Assembly: GCA_012719415.1 (NCBI GenBank)
Contig: JAAYAK010000072.1
Coordinates: 1 to 64,000, forward strand
DNA length: 64,000 nucleotides
Reading direction: 5' to 3'
DNA from: Syntrophorhabdus sp.
GTDB taxonomy: Bacteria; Desulfobacterota; Syntrophorhabdia; Syntrophorhabdales; Syntrophorhabdaceae
Below are positions 13,623 to 22,710 of the stretch, piece by piece (the first letter of the stretch is position 1; every line of letters begins with the position of its first letter). The translations under genes and the position numbers were made by a program. A model generated the notes under the pieces. That model searched no databases and had not been told where the DNA came from. It saw only the letters and a list, made by a program, of their open reading frames with translations.

Positions 13623-14669
13623 ATGAATAAGTGCTATATTTTAGGTGCCGGCGCTTCCTTTGGATACGATGATAGTATTGTACCGGAATTACGCCCTCCT
13701 TTGACTAATGGGTTTTTTGTACAAGGGCTTCGATTAGGCATTTTCACAGAACAATCTTTTCCTGATTTGTTTTCGAGTGTTAGGAAATATCTTAGCATAG
13801 AAGGAGATATTGAAAGACAACAGCAACTGGATTGTGATATTGAAGGGCTGTTAGATTGGCTTGCGAACGCGTTTAAGGAGGCAACCTCATCGGGTGAGAT
13901 CGATTTTGAGCGAAGCAATCAGGCGCAACGAGCATTAAGTCAAACATTCTATTTCATATACGAATTATTTAGGTATTATACGCTTCTTTATGGTCCTAAA
14001 TTTGATAACTATAGAAGACTTGCTCTTCATTATCATGACTGTAAGTACGGAATCATAACTTTAAACTATGACGTGTTCTTCGAATTGGCCGCACAGAGTA
14101 TTAACGTTAATACTCATTATTCTCTTGGGCCGCATCATCCCAAAAGCGTTCCCATTGCAAAGATTCATGGTTCTATAAATTGGTTGAATCCGTGTAGAGG
14201 CGGAATTGCATTCGGGGGTTTAGGAAGCGATTCTTTCTTAGAGATTATTACCCCCATTTTCTCAAATAGGATAAACATAACACAGATGATGGTCTTACCG
14301 CCTGGCGCTGTTCGTGACATCAGCTATCGAGATTTTGTTAGATCAGGTATAGATTATGACGAACCTGCGATAATTCCACCTCTTGCTGGATACAAAGACT
14401 ATGATAAGATTCAAGACTATTCGGGTATATGGACATTTGCTGAGTCAATGCTTCGGGAAGCTACCGAATTAGTTATAATCGGATGTTCTATACGAGCCGA
14501 AGACGTTAAATTTAACGAGTTGCTGAAAAAAGCTGTTGGTCAAAAGGCATCTATTACTATTGTTGATAAGACTCCGGACAAGGTTGTCAGTAATTTAGAA
14601 CGAATAGTTGCCAATCCAATCGTGGATAAAACATTTACCTCATTTACCGATTACGCCAAAACTCTTTGA
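13623..14669 (+). CDS. SIR2-like (defence-type) NAD-binding protein
   Basis: A 348-residue protein with SIR2-fold landmarks: GAGAS at 8-12, TLNYDVFFE at 146-154 with N148 and D150, KIHGSINW with catalytic-type H182, and a late IIGCSIRAED segment. It lacks the zinc CxxC pairs of true deacylases (compare the sirtuin at 24.9 kb). It therefore belongs with the SIR2-like domains used as NADases in phage-defence systems such as Thoeris, DSR and SIR2-HerA. It follows the membrane-protein gene and is followed by the inverted element copy. Composition is clearly AT-richer than the core genome, indicating transfer. Confidence 0.8.
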   Translation: MNKCYILGAGASFGYDDSIVPELRPPLTNGFFVQGLRLGIFTEQSFPDLFSSVRKYLSIEGDIERQQQLDCDIEGLLDWLANAFKEATSSGEIDFERSNQAQRALSQTFYFIYELFRYYTLLYGPKFDNYRRLALHYHDCKYGIITLNYDVFFELAAQSINVNTHYSLGPHHPKSVPIAKIHGSINWLNPCRGGIAFGGLGSDSFLEIITPIFSNRINITQMMVLPPGAVRDISYRDFVRSGIDYDEPAIIPPLAGYKDYDKIQDYSGIWTFAESMLREATELVIIGCSIRAEDVKFNELLKKAVGQKASITIVDKTPDKVVSNLERIVANPIVDKTFTSFTDYAKTL

Positions 14670-15183: not shown

Positions 15184-16857
15184 TTATTTTGCTGTTTGAT
15201 CCAGTGTTCGTTTCAGCTCTTCTATCAAGGCGGAGGTTAAGCCTGTTCGGGATTGCATGCCCGATAGCAGGGCATCGATCGTTGAGAGCTCGTCCTTGAC
15301 GTATCCCATTGCCTGGTCGCGGACCTCGTCGATCGTTTTGTTGATCCGTATTTCCCATTGGTATGCCAGGCGGGAGAGGTGGGCTTCGACGGTTTTGGGG
15401 ATGAGCTTGCGAAAATGGGTCTCGAAGGGTTTTCGGAAGATGCACATGGGGATGAGGAACCAGAGGAGGTCGAAGTGGAAGTCGAAGGGATGGATGAAGG
15501 CTATGTCAGGGTGGGAGGGCTCGGTGACGGTCATGTTCCATTCGATGCTTGTCGGGGTGATTCCCAGTACCTTTTCGATGTTCTTGTCGAGGAGGTTCCG
15601 AAAGAGCATCATCGAGCGGGAGATGGCGGCATGGGCCTTTTTCAGGGTGCCCAGGAAATGCTTGTATTCCGTCTTCGACAGGGAATCCATCTCTTTCGTC
15701 ATCGTTTCCATGAGCCACTCTTCGTAGCGTCTCGTGAGCTTCCAGAGATTTCCCTTCCATTGGGGCATCTCTTCGGACAACGTTTTGAGGAGCTTTTTCG
15801 TCAATGGCAGCCTGTGGGTGGTTTCGAGGTATTCCGCTATGACCGGGCGGGTCTGTTGCTTGCTGTCCCGGGCGATGAGGGAGAGCTCCGACTGGATGAG
15901 GTCGTAGTTGACGGTTTCGTCGAGAATGAGTTTCTTTAAGACATCGCGGTCCTCGTCGCTCTGCAGGGATGTTTTGAGGGCTATCTCGAGGTAGCTGATC
16001 GTGTTCCTGGTGAGGGACCTTACCTTGTGGCGCAGGATGCCCTCGAATTCGTTGCCGCGGTTACGGGACAGGGCGAGCAGCATCTGGTCGAGGAAGCGTT
16101 TGTAGAATTCCGTTTCGGCGACGACGGAATAGAGGAGCACGGGAAAGTCCCGGTTCAGCTCCCGCCTCAATGTGCTCTTGAAGAACCGGACGACCTCCTC
16201 CTGCTGGTCCGATGAGAGTAGGTCGACCTTTGTCAGGAGGAGGACCACCCTGGGCGTGTGCTCCGTGAGGTTTCTTATGAGGGCAAGGTCGTTTTCCGAC
16301 AACGGTCTGTCCGCGCTGATCGCGACGATCGCCATGCCGACCCCGGGAAGCCATTCCTGGGATATCTCCGTGTTGTACTTGAAGACGCTTCCCAGGCCCG
16401 GTGTGTCGACAAGGCGGAGTCCCTCGTAGTACGTGAGGTGGGGCAGTTCGATGTCCACCACCTCGACGTTCTTCTCGTTTGCGGGGTTTTTCGCCTCTGA
16501 GATATAGAGTTCAACCTCGTCGAGGCCGATCCGCGATTTCCTGTTGTCGAGGAATGTCACTGTGGCCCCTTCGGTCTCCCCGTAGCTCAGGCGCGTGATG
16601 ACGGTGGTTACGGGAATGGCGCCGACGGGAAGGACGGGCTTGCCGATGATGCTGTTGAGAAAGGAGCTTTTGCCCGCCTTGAATTGTCCCAGGATGGCGA
16701 CGTCGATGAAGGGATCTCTTGCCAGCAGGTCCTTACAGGCGTCGACCTGCCGCGAGAGGGACAGGATGCCGTATTCCTTGCAAATCTTCTCAATGGTATT
16801 GAGGACCGGAAGGGCGGGGTGCCGGATGGGGCTTGCAATGCTTGAAGTGTCGTTCAT
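15184..16857 (-). CDS. Dynamin-like GTPase
   Basis: Large GTPase of the bacterial dynamin-like family, thought to act on membranes. Numbering from the leading TTG frame, G1 GQFKAGKSS is at 58-66, G3 DTPG at 152-155 and G4 TKVD at 210-213. The helical stalk occupies about residues 280-555, with a hydrophobic stretch near 460-475 (FHFDLLWFLIPMCIF) that may be the membrane paddle. ATG 16857 follows GGAGGAG; the frame could also open with TTG one codon earlier. Its 3' end lies 48 bp from element copy 3, so the island boundary abuts this gene. Confidence 0.85.
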   Translation of the reverse strand: MNDTSSIASPIRHPALPVLNTIEKICKEYGILSLSRQVDACKDLLARDPFIDVAILGQFKAGKSSFLNSIIGKPVLPVGAIPVTTVITRLSYGETEGATVTFLDNRKSRIGLDEVELYISEAKNPANEKNVEVVDIELPHLTYYEGLRLVDTPGLGSVFKYNTEISQEWLPGVGMAIVAISADRPLSENDLALIRNLTEHTPRVVLLLTKVDLLSSDQQEEVVRFFKSTLRRELNRDFPVLLYSVVAETEFYKRFLDQMLLALSRNRGNEFEGILRHKVRSLTRNTISYLEIALKTSLQSDEDRDVLKKLILDETVNYDLIQSELSLIARDSKQQTRPVIAEYLETTHRLPLTKKLLKTLSEEMPQWKGNLWKLTRRYEEWLMETMTKEMDSLSKTEYKHFLGTLKKAHAAISRSMMLFRNLLDKNIEKVLGITPTSIEWNMTVTEPSHPDIAFIHPFDFHFDLLWFLIPMCIFRKPFETHFRKLIPKTVEAHLSRLAYQWEIRINKTIDEVRDQAMGYVKDELSTIDALLSGMQSRTGLTSALIEELKRTLDQTAK

Positions 16858-17172
16858 CAACTCCTCCGAAAGCGATCCGTGGATGACCGCGAAAGGCTTC
16901 CACTATTTGTCAGGAGTTATCAGCCCCGGTCAGGGCGGTTAGAAGGTGAACCCCATCACCGGTCAAAAAATATCATATATCCGGGAAGGTTTACAATCCA
17001 AAACCATCTTCCGCAGTCATGCCTTTGCCGGTAGCGCGCGTTGACTTCCTGCGGTGAGGGGGATATGATTCCTGTACCGCGGGGCATGGGTGTGGTGGTG
17101 CCTGGTCGCCTGGGAGTTTTCATTGCCCGATCATGTCCGCGGCACGTGTTCAGGAAAGTCCCCGGGGGAGAT
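16858..17172. other. Intergenic region between divergent genes
   Basis: About 315 bp separate the dynamin-like gene and the ferredoxin-nitroreductase. It must hold both promoters, but I cannot assign hexamers with confidence. CCGGTCAGGGCGG near 16925 and ACCGGTC near 16956 are partly complementary. An in-frame extension of the nitroreductase to 17041 exists but shows no protein-like conservation. Confidence 0.35.
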
Positions 17173-18051
17173 ATGAATTACGACGGTCTCATCACCATCG
17201 ACAGCGAGATATGCAGGAAGGACGGGCTTTGCGTTCGCATCTGTCCGAAGGTTTTCACCCAGGCCGGGCCGGGCAGTGTGCCTGAGGTCTCGCGGCCGGA
17301 GTTCTGCAATGATTGCGGGCATTGCCTGCTTGTCTGTCCTGTCGGGGCGATACGGCACCGCAATCTTGAGGGAAGGGCCATCACTGAAGTGGAGAAGGAC
17401 CTTTTGCCGTCGTTCCGGCAGGTGCAGGAGATGGTGAGGGCGCGGCGCTCCATTCGGAATTTCCTCGATAAGCCCGTCGAAAGAGAAATGATAGAGAAGG
17501 TCGTCGACGCGGCCCGGTTTGCTCCCAGCGCCAAGAACACGCAGAGTACGCGGTTCATTGCCGTCGACAATGGTGAGACGCTTCGGAGGATAGCGTCCAT
17601 GACGGCGGCGTGGCTGGGAAGGTCGGCGAAGAAGCTCAGGAACCCTCTCGTCCGCGCCGTGTATCTCATGCGCGGCCTGACGACGAAGGAAGAGTATTCC
17701 CGCTGGATCGGACAGTTCGAGCTTACGGCGCGCAACATGGAGAAGGGCATCGATACGATCCTGTACCGGGCCCCCGCGCTTGTCCTGTTCCATGCCGACA
17801 GACGGGTGCGCTTCGCTGAGGCGAACGCGAACCTTGCCCTCCAGAACGCCACCTTCGCCGCCTCAGCGCTCGGCCTTGGCACCTTCTACACGGGATATGT
17901 CGTCTCCGCCTGTGCCCACGACAGGGCGATCCCCGATATGCTCGGAGTCCCGAAAGGACACCGCGTCTACGCCGGTATGACCCTTGGTCATGTGAAGATC
18001 GGTTTTTCGCGCTGGATAGACCGGAATCCGGCAAGAATAGACTGGATATAG
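17173..18051 (+). CDS. Nitroreductase with N-terminal two-cluster ferredoxin domain
   Basis: A 292-residue fusion. Residues about 1-65 are an 8-iron ferredoxin (CRKDGLCVRICPKVF, CNDCGHCLLVCPVGA) and residues about 85-290 a flavin nitroreductase (RRSIRNFLDKPVE, ARFAPSAKNTQSTRF, ASALGLGTFYTGY). Such proteins are common in anaerobes and reduce an unknown substrate with electrons delivered through their own clusters. ATG 17173 is chosen because GGGGGAG precedes it and the family starts there; the longer frame from 17041 is unlikely. It is monocistronic, followed by a repeat hairpin. Confidence 0.88.
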   Translation: MNYDGLITIDSEICRKDGLCVRICPKVFTQAGPGSVPEVSRPEFCNDCGHCLLVCPVGAIRHRNLEGRAITEVEKDLLPSFRQVQEMVRARRSIRNFLDKPVEREMIEKVVDAARFAPSAKNTQSTRFIAVDNGETLRRIASMTAAWLGRSAKKLRNPLVRAVYLMRGLTTKEEYSRWIGQFELTARNMEKGIDTILYRAPALVLFHADRRVRFAEANANLALQNATFAASALGLGTFYTGYVVSACAHDRAIPDMLGVPKGHRVYAGMTLGHVKIGFSRWIDRNPARIDWI

Positions 18052-18238: not shown

Positions 18239-18365
18239 CCTGTCGTCACCCGTATTACCTAATTTACTTTTCTTTCACAATGTGCGATAAAGTCACAGAA
18301 AGTTGATTGCACCCATTGCATTCAACAGGGATACTCATAATTCAGTAAGAAGGGTGCACGATACG

Positions 18366-19664
18366 ATGAACAACCATTCTCTTGACGACATAGTTACCGC
18401 GTACAGCCGTTTTGTCCCCCACCAGTTCCTGCAGCTCCTCGGCAAGGACAACGTTGTCGATATCACTCTCGGCGAGAGCCTTGAGAAGAAGATGACCATT
18501 CTCTTCTCGGACATGAGAGATTTTACGACCCTTTCCGAATCGATGACGCCCCGTCAGAACTTCGAGTTCATAAACGCTTACCTGGAGCGAATGGAACCGG
18601 TTATCACCGAGCACAACGGTGTTATAGACAAGTACATAGGCGACGCGATCATGGCTCTTTTTCCGACGAGCCCCGATGACGCTCTCGAGTGCGCGATAGA
18701 GATGCTTGGTCGCCTTGCCGGGTACAACCAGGAAAGAGGAAAGGCCGGGCATCGATCGGTCTCTATCGGTATAGGTCTCAACACGGGTCTTATGATGCTG
18801 GGCACAGTGGGCGGCAGGAACCGAATACAGAGCACCGTCATCAGCGACGCCGTGAACCTTGCTTCACGCGTGGAGACCATGACGAAGAGCTTTCGCACCA
18901 ACCTCCTCATCACGGAGCACACATACTGCAGCCTTAAGGACCCTGTCCGATACCGGATACGGTTTGCCGACCGCGTTACGGTGAAGGGTAGAAAGCAGCC
19001 GCAACCGGTCTATGAGGTCTTCGATGGCGACCTGCCCGAGGTCCGCGCCGCGAAGGAAAAGACGACGAGGCTCTTCGAGAGAGGGGTGGCCTATTATTAT
19101 TTCAGGGAGGTTATGCGCGCGCTCGAACTGTTCAGAGAATGCCTGGCCGAATGCCCGGAAGATAGCCTGGCAAGGGTGTATGCGGACAGATGTGAGCACT
19201 ACCTGGAGACGGGTGTCCATGAGGGAGCGGGCGAGATCGATCTTGTCGCTAAATGGGCGGAGGCCTTCGAGATAGGACACCCTGACATCGACGACCAGCA
19301 CCGGCAGTTGTTTGAGCGTGTGAACAGGTTCGCCGAAATGATCAGGAAGGACCGCGACTTCACAGCAGCCGGTCCCGTCATTGATTTCCTCGACGAGTAC
19401 GTCCGGACGCACTTCAAGGACGAAGAGGATATCATGGAGAAGCAGGGATACCCCTTTCTGGACGTCCAGAGGGACCAGCACGAGCGGTTCACGGAGCGCT
19501 TTGCGGCTCTCAAGCGCGAATTGCAGGAATCAGACGGTTCCGACTGGCATTTTCTTCTCTTCAAGATACAGATACTCGTCGTGGATTGGCTTGTCCATCA
19601 CACGTGCGGGGCTGACAGGCACCTGGGCAGGTTTCTCAGACTGGAAAGGTCAACAGGAGAATAG
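18366..19664 (+). CDS. Class III adenylate/guanylate cyclase fused to bacteriohemerythrin
   Basis: A 432-residue fusion. The cyclase homology domain spans about residues 40-215, with metal-binding FSDMRDFT (D49) and YIGDAIMALF (D93) and the NRIQSTVISDAVNLASR dimer segment. A short helical linker follows (about 235-295). Residues about 305-430 are a hemerythrin domain with the full ligand set (IGHPDIDDQHRQL, HFKDEEDIM, RDQHERF, LVHHTCGADRHL). Oxygen or NO binding at the diiron site probably tunes cyclic nucleotide synthesis. ATG 18366 is one choice; GTG 18354 and TTG 18303 are in frame. A ferritin-like gene follows 11 bp later. Confidence 0.87.
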   Translation: MNNHSLDDIVTAYSRFVPHQFLQLLGKDNVVDITLGESLEKKMTILFSDMRDFTTLSESMTPRQNFEFINAYLERMEPVITEHNGVIDKYIGDAIMALFPTSPDDALECAIEMLGRLAGYNQERGKAGHRSVSIGIGLNTGLMMLGTVGGRNRIQSTVISDAVNLASRVETMTKSFRTNLLITEHTYCSLKDPVRYRIRFADRVTVKGRKQPQPVYEVFDGDLPEVRAAKEKTTRLFERGVAYYYFREVMRALELFRECLAECPEDSLARVYADRCEHYLETGVHEGAGEIDLVAKWAEAFEIGHPDIDDQHRQLFERVNRFAEMIRKDRDFTAAGPVIDFLDEYVRTHFKDEEDIMEKQGYPFLDVQRDQHERFTERFAALKRELQESDGSDWHFLLFKIQILVVDWLVHHTCGADRHLGRFLRLERSTGE

Positions 19665-19675
19665 GGAGCGGTGAA

Positions 19676-20182
19676 ATGAACATCGAGGTATCGGGAGAAC
19701 TCTCGGGAATACTGGAAATGCTGAAACAGATGGCGCTCTTCGAGACGAAGATCGCCGAAATGTACAGCGTTTGCGCGTCGATGTGGAAGGAGGACGGCCA
19801 GTTCTGGCTCGATATCTGGCGGGATGAATTGCGGCACGCACGGCATATCGAGCAGATGATGGACATCATTCGGAAGAAGCCGGGACGTTTTCAGGCCGGA
19901 CGCCCCTTCAACGTGCATGCCCTGGCGACGGTTGTCAGGGACATCGTGCAGAAAACGGAAATGCTGAGGAACGGAGAGATCACGCAGGAGAGGTTCTTGT
20001 TTATCGCACAGAGCTATGAGGAGGGATATATCGAGGACAAATATGGCGAGATCGTAAAGACCGACGATGTCGAATACCAGACCCTCATGAGGGAGATCGT
20101 CAGTGATACCCGGCAGCACAAGGACAGGATCATTCATCACATACTAGACAGTGCGGAAAAGAAGGGATACATCAAGACGTAA
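19676..20182 (+). CDS. Ferritin-like/rubrerythrin-type diiron protein
   Basis: A 168-residue, almost wholly helical protein with a four-helix ferritin-like look. LFETKIAEMYSVCA supplies the first Glu, DELRHARHIEQM the ExxH pair, and later helices further acids and histidines (IAQSYEEGYIEDKYGEI, DTRQHKDRIIHH). The rubredoxin zinc ribbon of classical rubrerythrin is absent. It lies 11 bp after the cyclase-hemerythrin gene with its own ribosome site, so the two diiron proteins are probably made together, perhaps as an oxygen or peroxide response. The specific reaction is unknown. Confidence 0.75.
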   Translation: MNIEVSGELSGILEMLKQMALFETKIAEMYSVCASMWKEDGQFWLDIWRDELRHARHIEQMMDIIRKKPGRFQAGRPFNVHALATVVRDIVQKTEMLRNGEITQERFLFIAQSYEEGYIEDKYGEIVKTDDVEYQTLMREIVSDTRQHKDRIIHHILDSAEKKGYIKT

Positions 20183-20240: not shown

Positions 20241-20394
20241 GGAACTCACCAGGACCCTCCCATCGGCCGTATGCCGGCACCGGGGGCGCCCGGGCTCTGG
20301 AATTTCTGCTTGAAACCGGTCCGGCTCAATGTTAAAACCCAAATGCCCATAGCGGCTCTGAAAGACGACGGGACGAGTGCGGGAGAGGTTTATG

Positions 20395-21090
20395 ATGAAC
20401 GGTTTGATCGACGAAGGTCGGGAACTCATTGACGCGGCGGAAGAGGGTGACGTTGCCGGGGCGAGCGTGCTCATCGCGGCAGGCGCCGACGTGGAGGAGA
20501 CGGATACCGGCGGCTGGACGCCTCTCATGGTGGCGGCGCAGGCGGGGCATCTCGAGATGGTGCGTGTCCTGATCGCGGCGGGGGCCGATGTGAACGCGAG
20601 GGACAGGCTCCGTGTGACGCCTCTCATGGTGGCGGCGTCGGGTGGCTCCACGGGCCTCATGGAAATGCTGCTTAATAACGGGGCGGCTGTCAACGATGCG
20701 GACGAGAATGGAACGACCCCTCTTATGTGGGCGTCCACGGAAGGGCGTGTCGAGGCGGTGCGGATGCTCATAGTACGGGGAGCCGACGTGAACGCGAGGG
20801 GGGCGAGCGGGTACACCGCGCTCATGGACGCGTCGGGGAAAGGGCACGTGGAGGTGGCGGAGCTTCTCATAACGGCAAAGGCTGATGTGAACGCGAAGGA
20901 CAAGAACGGCCTGACGGCCCTCATGCTCGCGGCGATGATGGGTCACAGTGACGTGGTCCGCGCACTCATACGTGCGGGAGCCGACGTGAACGCCAGGGGA
21001 GATGGCGGGTACACCGCCCTTATGGACGCGTCGGGAAGCGGCTGCGAGGAGATAGTCCGGCTCCTTGAGGAAGCGGGGGCTACCGGGTAG
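20395..21090 (+). CDS. Ankyrin-repeat protein
   Basis: A 231-residue protein made almost only of about seven 33-residue ankyrin repeats, each with the TPLM/TALM start, the A-x-x-G-H helix and a GADVNAR turn. No signal peptide or membrane segment is present, so it is cytoplasmic and presumably a protein-binding scaffold. ATG 20395 is chosen because GGGAGAGG lies 6-7 bp upstream; ATG 20392 and GTG 20377 are in frame. The repeats are also visible in the DNA, so copy number may vary. Its 3' end overlaps the convergent flavoprotein gene by 11 bp. Confidence 0.88.
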   Translation: MNGLIDEGRELIDAAEEGDVAGASVLIAAGADVEETDTGGWTPLMVAAQAGHLEMVRVLIAAGADVNARDRLRVTPLMVAASGGSTGLMEMLLNNGAAVNDADENGTTPLMWASTEGRVEAVRMLIVRGADVNARGASGYTALMDASGKGHVEVAELLITAKADVNAKDKNGLTALMLAAMMGHSDVVRALIRAGADVNARGDGGYTALMDASGSGCEEIVRLLEEAGATG

Positions 21091-22558
21091 CTTCCCTGAT
21101 GCTCTTGACGGCGATGCGGCCCGAGCTCAGCGCGAAGCTGCTTGCCGAACCCTCAGCGAGGAGGTCGTAGGTGCTGTCGTAAAGACCGCCCATGTCCTGC
21201 CCCGTGACATACAGGCCAGGGATCACTTCCCCTTGCTCATCGAGGGCCTGCATGCGCGTGTTTACCTGTACCCCGCCGAGGGTCAGGAAGAACGCGCGGA
21301 GCCCTTTCAGCGCATAGTAAGGACCCTGCCGGGTATCGAACTTCACGAGATGCTCCGGTTTGCGGCTGAAGTCCGGGTCGTGTTTCCCGTCGGCGTAGCG
21401 GTTGACAGTTTCGATCGTCTCCCGCAACTTCTGCGGTCTTATCCCTATCTTCCCGGCGAGTTCCTCGATCGTGTCCGCCTTGAAGGCGAAACCTGAGACT
21501 ATACCTTTCTCGATGCCTTCATCGAGGGCAGTCATCTTCTGTCCCGGAACGACGATGGCGTTGAAGGGTGTGAGAGGCCCGCTATCCACCATCGACCTTC
21601 GCATGGCATCGTCAAAGATGGACCACATGAGACCCCCGTTCGCCGTCATCGCGTTGTAGACGTCGCTGAAGACGGAGCCGAAGGATTCATTGTAGAAGCG
21701 GTCTCCATGCTTGTTCACCCAGAGAAAGGGCTGGCTCAGGGCACAGCGCATCTGTTTCATGTGGTCCGGTCCGCTGAACTGTCTTATCGCCGGCTCATTG
21801 TCGAGATAGGGGCTGTTTCCCGCAAGCGTCCCCATACTCGCGAGTGCCGCGCCAGCGCTCATGGCAAGGTTGATCCCGTCACCCGTCCTGCCGTCGACAG
21901 CGGGTCCGCGGTACATGAGCTTTGCCATCCCCGGTGTGCTGACATCGGGCACGTACTTCTTCAGCATCTCCTTGTTGCTGGCGAAACCCCCCGTGGCTAT
22001 GATGACGGCCCGCGCGGTTATCGTCATGGTGTTTCCGTCGGCATCGACGGCCTCGACGCCCGTGACGGCGCCCCTCTCGTCGATAAGGAGTTTCTTCGCC
22101 GGCGTTTGCGTCAAAAGGGGCACGCCTCTCTCCTTTATGTGACCGGAGAGTATCTTCACGAGCCGGGCTCCCCGGCCTTCGAAGATATGCCATACCTGAA
22201 GGCTCCTCTCGGGCGGGAACATCGTCCTTATCCCCTCTATCCTTACCCCGTGGTCGACGAGCCAGTCGATGGTCTCGGCGGATTCGTTGAGAAGGGCCCT
22301 GATGACCGACGCGTTGCACCGCCAGTGATGGAATTCCATAACCCTGGCGAAGACCTGGTCCGTCGTTGTCGTGATCCGCTTCTCCTTCTGATACCGTGTT
22401 CCGATGCCGAGAGAACCTTCTGGGAAAAGGCCGGCGCCGCCGGGAAAGGGCATCTTCTCCAGAAGAATGACCCTCAAGCCATATTCTGCCGCCGTCAGCG
22501 CGGCCGACAGGCCGCTTAAGCCCCCTCCCGCGATGACTATGTCCGTTTCGTGGTCCAT
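21080..22558 (-). CDS. FAD-dependent oxidoreductase of the fumarate reductase/flavocytochrome c type
   Basis: A flavoprotein of about 492 residues with an N-terminal Rossmann motif (DIVIAGGGLSGLSAALTAAE), a GGFASNKEML segment and the C-terminal GGVQVNTRMQAL and GLYVTGQDMGGLYDSTYDL parts seen in fumarate reductase, KSTD and urocanate reductase relatives. It reduces or oxidises an unknown C=C bond. No haem domain or Tat signal is present, so it is cytoplasmic and needs a separate electron donor. ATG 22558 follows GGGAGGA; a 24-residue extension to 22630 is unlikely. It converges on and overlaps the ankyrin gene. Confidence 0.82.
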   Translation of the reverse strand: MDHETDIVIAGGGLSGLSAALTAAEYGLRVILLEKMPFPGGAGLFPEGSLGIGTRYQKEKRITTTTDQVFARVMEFHHWRCNASVIRALLNESAETIDWLVDHGVRIEGIRTMFPPERSLQVWHIFEGRGARLVKILSGHIKERGVPLLTQTPAKKLLIDERGAVTGVEAVDADGNTMTITARAVIIATGGFASNKEMLKKYVPDVSTPGMAKLMYRGPAVDGRTGDGINLAMSAGAALASMGTLAGNSPYLDNEPAIRQFSGPDHMKQMRCALSQPFLWVNKHGDRFYNESFGSVFSDVYNAMTANGGLMWSIFDDAMRRSMVDSGPLTPFNAIVVPGQKMTALDEGIEKGIVSGFAFKADTIEELAGKIGIRPQKLRETIETVNRYADGKHDPDFSRKPEHLVKFDTRQGPYYALKGLRAFFLTLGGVQVNTRMQALDEQGEVIPGLYVTGQDMGGLYDSTYDLLAEGSASSFALSSGRIAVKSIREATR

Positions 22559-22710
22559 GATCGCCTGTCCTCCCGCTTCGTCGTCCCTCTGATGCCGTGC
22601 AAAGTGATCCCTGGACGAAGCATCATTCATGCTATAATAGATGGGGAGTGCAAATCAATGCAGTATGCTCTTCTGGATGAGAGGGTACTGCGAGGGAGAA
22701 GGGCGGAAAT

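Follow-up and report, generated by a model that had tools for sequence, protein, structure and literature searches.

Our main result is that a family of small ferritin-like proteins recurs beside two unrelated kinds of diiron sensor, each combined with a class III cyclase. One member of this family, hereafter the partner, is encoded directly after a cyclase-hemerythrin fusion in the 64,000-nucleotide stretch of Syntrophorhabdus sp. DNA that we analyzed (the window); in other genomes, partner-like genes lie with a separate cyclase and a diiron protein of the ODP family, a result that goes beyond the preliminary description of the gene pair and the positions it covered. This recurrence is suggestive of a little-known oxygen-to-cAMP switch family, and the partner appears to be a component common to cyclase modules with non-heme diiron sensors. 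The features of the window locus are as follows.

18263..18291, plus strand: candidate promoter TTTACT-N17-GATAAA, which recurs upstream of the orthologous operon in genome G005
18366..19664, plus strand: fusion of a class III adenylate cyclase (predicted), a helical linker and a C-terminal bacteriohemerythrin, 432 aa, from the open reading frame and profile matches
18486..18998, plus strand: cyclase catalytic domain, residues 41-211, with metal-binding D49 and D93, base-recognition K89/T157, and N164 and R168
19251..19637, plus strand: bacteriohemerythrin domain, residues 296-424, from NCBIfam and the register against DcrH
19467..19469, plus strand: codon of Q368, the substituted ligand position, from the sequence and the alignment register
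19665..19668, plus strand: GGAG, a putative ribosome-binding site within the 11 bp that separate the fusion and partner genes
19676..20182, plus strand: ferritin-like partner (P0002), 168 aa, with the motif E23 - E51xxH54 - E115/E120 - T145xxH148 and a predicted fold

The fusion is encoded in a single reading frame, with its ATG at 18366 and its stop at 19664, and profile searches bear out the cyclase-hemerythrin architecture first proposed for it. The Pfam Guanylate_cyc profile matches residues 41-211 (E 9.5e-21; 74.6 bits against a curated cut-off of 21.9) and the Pfam Hemerythrin profile matches residues 307-420 (E 1.5e-10). Moreover, the hemerythrin part matches the NCBIfam profiles hemeryth_dom and bact_hemeryth (TIGR02481, 9e-30, 103.3 against a cut-off of 51.75; NF033749, 4e-27, 94.8 against 84), and since both scores exceed their curated cut-offs, its identity as a hemerythrin is far beyond chance. 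The closest named relative is ‘Syntrophobacterales bacterium Delta_02’ (L063; 85% identity), which points to a deltaproteobacterium of the anaerobic, syntrophic type, or something close to one, as the probable source. In an AlphaFold2 model of the fusion, confidence is low across the first half of the cyclase, so domain coupling and inter-domain contacts are not readable from it.

The catalytic set of the cyclase is intact, comprising two metal-binding aspartates, the transition-state asparagine and arginine, and an adenine-type lysine-threonine pair, and our alignment shows that all six residues (D49, D93, K89, T157, N164 and R168) are kept in nearly all relatives of the fusion. The catalytic domain and its metal and transition-state residues are shared with two class III relatives known as stand-alone domains, Pseudomonas aeruginosa CyaB (3r5g) and the Synechocystis cyclase 2w01, whereas the window’s cyclase has a hemerythrin as its sensor. 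The lysine and threonine are those of CyaB, and 2w01 has a glutamate at the lysine position. A lysine paired with a threonine marks the CyaC/CyaB kind of adenylate cyclase among class III enzymes, lysine with aspartate being the other adenine-type pair, and class III adenylate cyclases act as homodimers. The product was initially given as cAMP or cGMP; as judged from this active-site signature, the fusion is probably an adenylate rather than a guanylate cyclase, which favors cAMP and disfavors cGMP.

The hemerythrin domain, by contrast with its first description as carrying a complete ligand set, has one ligand changed. In a register checked against DcrH, its ligand positions are H312, H349, E353, Q368, H372, H412 and D417. 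The position taken by Q368 is that of the first histidine of HxxxH, which is an Fe1 ligand in the hemerythrin structure. Compared with the hemerythrin ligand signature H-HxxxE-HxxxH-HxxxxD (PMC9388753), the fusion thus departs from the O2-binding type by reading QxxxH at 368-372, and the six other positions match. Glutamine is found at this position in all ten members of the well-supported clade that contains the window’s protein, one of which is from a Rhodocyclales MAG, and in three relatives outside that clade (G268, G400 and L066, a Spirochaetes MAG), and therefore does not reflect a sequencing slip. The ratio dN/dS is 0.08-0.17 over the cyclase and hemerythrin parts and 0.13-0.17 for the partner gene; against three close relatives, the hemerythrin part (0.08-0.12) is as low as the cyclase part. 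Because glutamine is found throughout the clade and purifying selection is strong, we take the Q368 hemerythrin to be a kept variant and not a product of decay.

Other branches of the fusion tell a varied story. A complete ligand set is present in G080, L064, L067, L068, L073 and the Beggiatoa/Thiomargarita group, and the H349 position is occupied by M, I, Q, D or A in several betaproteobacterial fusions. These alignments show the hemerythrin ligands changing from branch to branch, and a single substitution is fixed in the window’s clade. With one Fe1 ligand gone, the site could contain a single iron or another metal, or be apo. The fusion’s domain is the sole hemerythrin in the window genome.

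The partner gene starts at 19676, 11 bp past the fusion stop at 19664, exactly as first described. The protein gave no useful sequence match in Pfam, NCBIfam, PHROGs or the PDB; PF02686 (GatC) was rejected as below cut-off, and matches in NCBIfam and PHROGs were insignificant. Its AlphaFold2 model, built from only three sequences, is a confident helical bundle (pLDDT 87.6), and the predicted structure has the ferritin-like four-helix fold shared by TM1526 (1vjx), YciF (2gs4) and Pfu (2fzf). Structural alignment with VIA-align ranks TM1526, a ferritin-like protein of the diiron-carboxylate kind, first (Z 15.5 and rmsd 2.5 across 143 residues) and places YciF and rubrerythrin-like proteins next, with the matches 1vjx, 2gs4 and 2fzf spanning Z 15.5 to 13.9. 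The best Foldseek match was an aldehyde-deformylating oxygenase, which we discarded as an identity at E 0.099; given the weak Foldseek E-values and the VIA-align ranking of TM1526 and YciF, we claim no specific enzyme role for the partner.

Across 57 aligned partner-family rows, almost no variation is seen at E23, Y30, W44, E51, H54, E115 and H148, and E120 is conserved almost as strictly. Unlike the rubrerythrin-like proteins above, the family has mostly lost the glutamate of the second ExxH, which is replaced in 53 of the 57 rows (Thr in 49, Ser in 4), and P0002 has Thr145. The partner therefore lacks the full E-ExxH-E-ExxH diiron signature. Of its original description as a ferritin-like diiron protein, the predicted fold and the residues E23, E51xxH54, E115, E120 and H148 hold up; with Thr145 where the glutamate would be, the diiron assignment is supported only in part, and the partner is probably a metal protein.

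Separate searches with each protein, in relatives and across the phylum, confirmed that the gene pair is conserved, a check that had been called for at the outset. The fusion and partner adjoin in eight genomes of the phylum and in one Rhodocyclales MAG, with the partner downstream at five loci (G000, G002, G003, G005 and the Rhodocyclales MAG) and upstream at four (G012, G013, G022 and G268). Among the 16 relatives that have His at position 368, a few of whose contigs are short, no partner was detectable; of the 13 Gln-type fusions, four are without it: G244, L066 (the Spirochaete), G400, which is truncated, and G011, which is broken. In G022, the 3′ end of the Gln-type fusion gene is overlapped by a stand-alone hemerythrin with complete ligands (L194:3813-4241, minus strand), giving a three-gene operon of partner, fusion and stand-alone hemerythrin; the last of these may act in trans. 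In G400, an FAD/NAD oxidoreductase gene (L191:5217-5933, plus strand) follows the truncated Gln-type fusion and is a possible reductase for the sensor.

A second arrangement combines a separate class III cyclase of K/D type, an ODP diiron protein (PF19583) and a partner-like gene. We identified it in 11 genomes (G008, G018, G023, G027, G035, G038, G118, G204, G277, G290 and G325), all but G118 by reading the DNA on either side of partner-family genes across the phylum; G008 belongs to the same genus as the window. Gene order at these loci varies between cyclase-ODP-partner, partner-cyclase-ODP and, in G325, a convergent layout. Overall, a class III cyclase lies at 19 of 64 partner-family loci, each time within about 1 kb (about 570 kb surveyed), where about 1.1 would be expected anywhere in those flanks at the window genome’s cyclase density; phylogenetic non-independence of the 64 loci, and the discovery of the Rhodocyclales one via the fusion, make the ratio descriptive only. 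A search of 395 genomes with the K/D cyclase, a check free of the bias of choosing loci by the partner, returned nine cyclase-ODP loci and added G118; a partner-family gene adjoins eight of the nine, and the ninth, G398, is without one. Moreover, a deeply diverging clade of partners (G268, G118, G204 and G288) includes partners of a Gln-hemerythrin fusion as well as of ODP-cyclases, which ties the family to each sensor type more than once, with the G268 partner on a long branch whose exact placement is unsure.

Most members of the partner family adjoin no cyclase. A second member in the window genome, on the window’s own contig (C72, about 103 kb; L198:6084-6626, minus strand), has no cyclase, ODP or hemerythrin near it. 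At L200:4853-6469 (plus strand), a partner-family gene lies immediately 5′ of a PAS-class III cyclase, with no obvious diiron sensor, an arrangement more in keeping with a protein that partners the cyclase than with one that partners an iron sensor. ODP is not part of the window’s operon: the ODP-domain genes of the window genome sit on other contigs, and ODP is present only in relatives with unfused cyclases. The cyclase-linked ODPs carry HxDxDL (L201, L208, L209, L218, L219, L225, L239 and L243), whereas flavodiiron-type sites are usually HxExDH, and on this comparison the cyclase-linked ODP also seems ligand-altered. In G290, a complete stand-alone hemerythrin (L209:5597-6025, plus strand) follows the cyclase-ODP-partner operon, and both types of diiron protein are found at one locus.

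Taken together, we lean towards a model in which the fusion is a soluble class III adenylate cyclase set by the redox or iron state of a non-canonical hemerythrin, with a dedicated ferritin-like metal protein. The state of the C-terminal hemerythrin (H-HxxxE-QxxxH-HxxxxD) would govern cyclase activity; the partner would aid the sensor, by iron loading, re-reduction or peroxide removal, or bind the complex or the cyclase; and the output, from the K/T signature, would be cAMP acting on CRP-type receptors. The genome encodes nine cNMP-binding proteins; canonical phosphate-binding cassettes (GE..PRSA) are present in several, a CRP-type regulator among them. The 99%-complete window genome contains neither a cytochrome bd nor a haem-copper oxidase gene, which supports the anaerobic host first assumed and is consistent with oxygen as a stress signal; the module would alert an anaerobe that lacks a terminal oxidase to O2 or oxidative intrusion. 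Both modules have in them a class III cyclase, a non-heme diiron site and the partner family; most simply, the partner would either serve the sensor’s iron or bind the cyclase. We give roughly even weight to the broader view that these loci form a distinct class of anaerobe oxygen/redox-to-cAMP modules, built from a cyclase, an interchangeable diiron sensor (a Gln-hemerythrin fused to a K/T cyclase, or an ODP next to a K/D cyclase) and a Thr-for-Glu ferritin-like protein as third working component.

Several other explanations bear on the same observations. The altered ligands of both proteins, Q368 in the hemerythrin and Thr145 in the partner, together with the partner’s predicted ferritin-like fold, would suit a sensor of iron or other-metal availability, whose weakened site loads only when iron is plentiful, with the partner as donor or store and O2 secondary; we consider this fairly unlikely, as the alternative sensor of the module, ODP, belongs to a family with a characterized O2-sensing member (PMC7666581). 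It is unlikely that the domain is a canonical reversible O2 or NO sensor, binding O2 in the manner of DcrH despite the glutamine and switching the cyclase by occupancy. Six of the seven ligands remain, among them the two bridging carboxylates and the two histidines of Fe2, the iron at which O2 binds, and DcrH is the best PDB match of the hemerythrin part, but the Fe1 histidine is replaced throughout the window’s clade, and the two characterized hemerythrin-domain c-di-GMP enzymes answer redox state, not ligand binding (PMC9388753). Of the coupling between an iron sensor and a cyclic nucleotide that was originally put forward, the link itself is well backed by the domain anatomy, purifying selection and pair conservation, and the canonical O2-binding type of hemerythrin falls away; with the Fe1 histidine replaced by glutamine, the domain is more likely to sense redox or iron state than to bind O2 or NO reversibly. 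That the partner is unrelated to the cyclase and adjoins it through an inherited neighborhood is improbable: most partner-family genes are located elsewhere, but adjacency stays as gene order flips among relatives, distant family members pair with both sensor kinds, and the partner is present at eight of nine cyclase-ODP loci found by the cyclase search. Finally, the loss of further ligands in other branches (the H349 position in several betaproteobacterial members) could suggest a metal-free, degenerate structural appendage on a cyclase regulated otherwise, which is very improbable for a clade with a single changed position, always glutamine, under strong purifying selection.

The redox- or iron-set cyclase that we favor has parallels in known systems. 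Bhr-DGC of Vibrio cholerae and Bhr-HD-GYP of Ferrovum are hemerythrin-domain c-di-GMP enzymes under non-heme diiron redox control (PMC9388753), and the window’s protein likewise fuses a bacteriohemerythrin domain to a second-messenger enzyme. Those proteins have an N-terminal hemerythrin and act on c-di-GMP, whereas the window’s fusion has a C-terminal hemerythrin and a class III cyclase; further, Bhr-HD-GYP has complete ligands (PMC9388753), and the window’s fusion has one changed and a ferritin-like partner gene. DcrH of Desulfovibrio vulgaris, similarly a signaling protein of an anaerobe with a C-terminal hemerythrin, differs in its MCP-domain output and complete HxxxH. The fusion is best read as a putative redox- or O2-responsive adenylate cyclase in a strict anaerobe, closer to Bhr-DGC than to a reversible O2 carrier. 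For the alternative sensor, Treponema denticola ODP is an oxygen-binding diiron protein coupled to an MCP homologue (PMC7666581); its family (PF19583) is found beside the partner family, though Treponema’s own output is an MCP and not a cyclase. We found no characterized cyclase-hemerythrin or cyclase-ODP module in the literature covered, largely papers free of subscription, and a review describes hemerythrin control of second messengers as established only for c-di-GMP enzymes (PMC9388753). If a non-heme diiron site does control cAMP here, hemerythrin regulation would reach beyond c-di-GMP, and oxidase-free anaerobes would gain a cAMP response to oxygen. A partner common to two unrelated diiron sensors also raises the question of whether these need a dedicated iron/redox accessory protein, and provides a first functional lead for the partner’s unnamed family, which has no match in Pfam or NCBIfam.

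Upstream of the pair, a consensus promoter scan flagged nothing, the candidate TTTACT-N17-GATAAA being too weak for the scanner; its counterpart in G003 is TTTACT-N17-GATATA. A CRP-like palindrome, TGTGCGATAAAGTCACA, at 18281-18297 was dropped as a CRP site; chance alone predicts 0.54 matches in the window, where one occurs, and the palindrome is found in G005 and not in G003. The pair is flanked by genes for a ferredoxin-nitroreductase (17041-18051), an ankyrin-repeat protein (20377-21090) and an FAD oxidoreductase (21080-22630), and open reading frames similar to the window’s flanking genes surround the pair in G003. Farther upstream, a gene for a SIR2-like domain protein (13623-14669, plus strand) lies near one for a dynamin-family GTPase (15184-16860, minus strand), and these two are possible defense genes.
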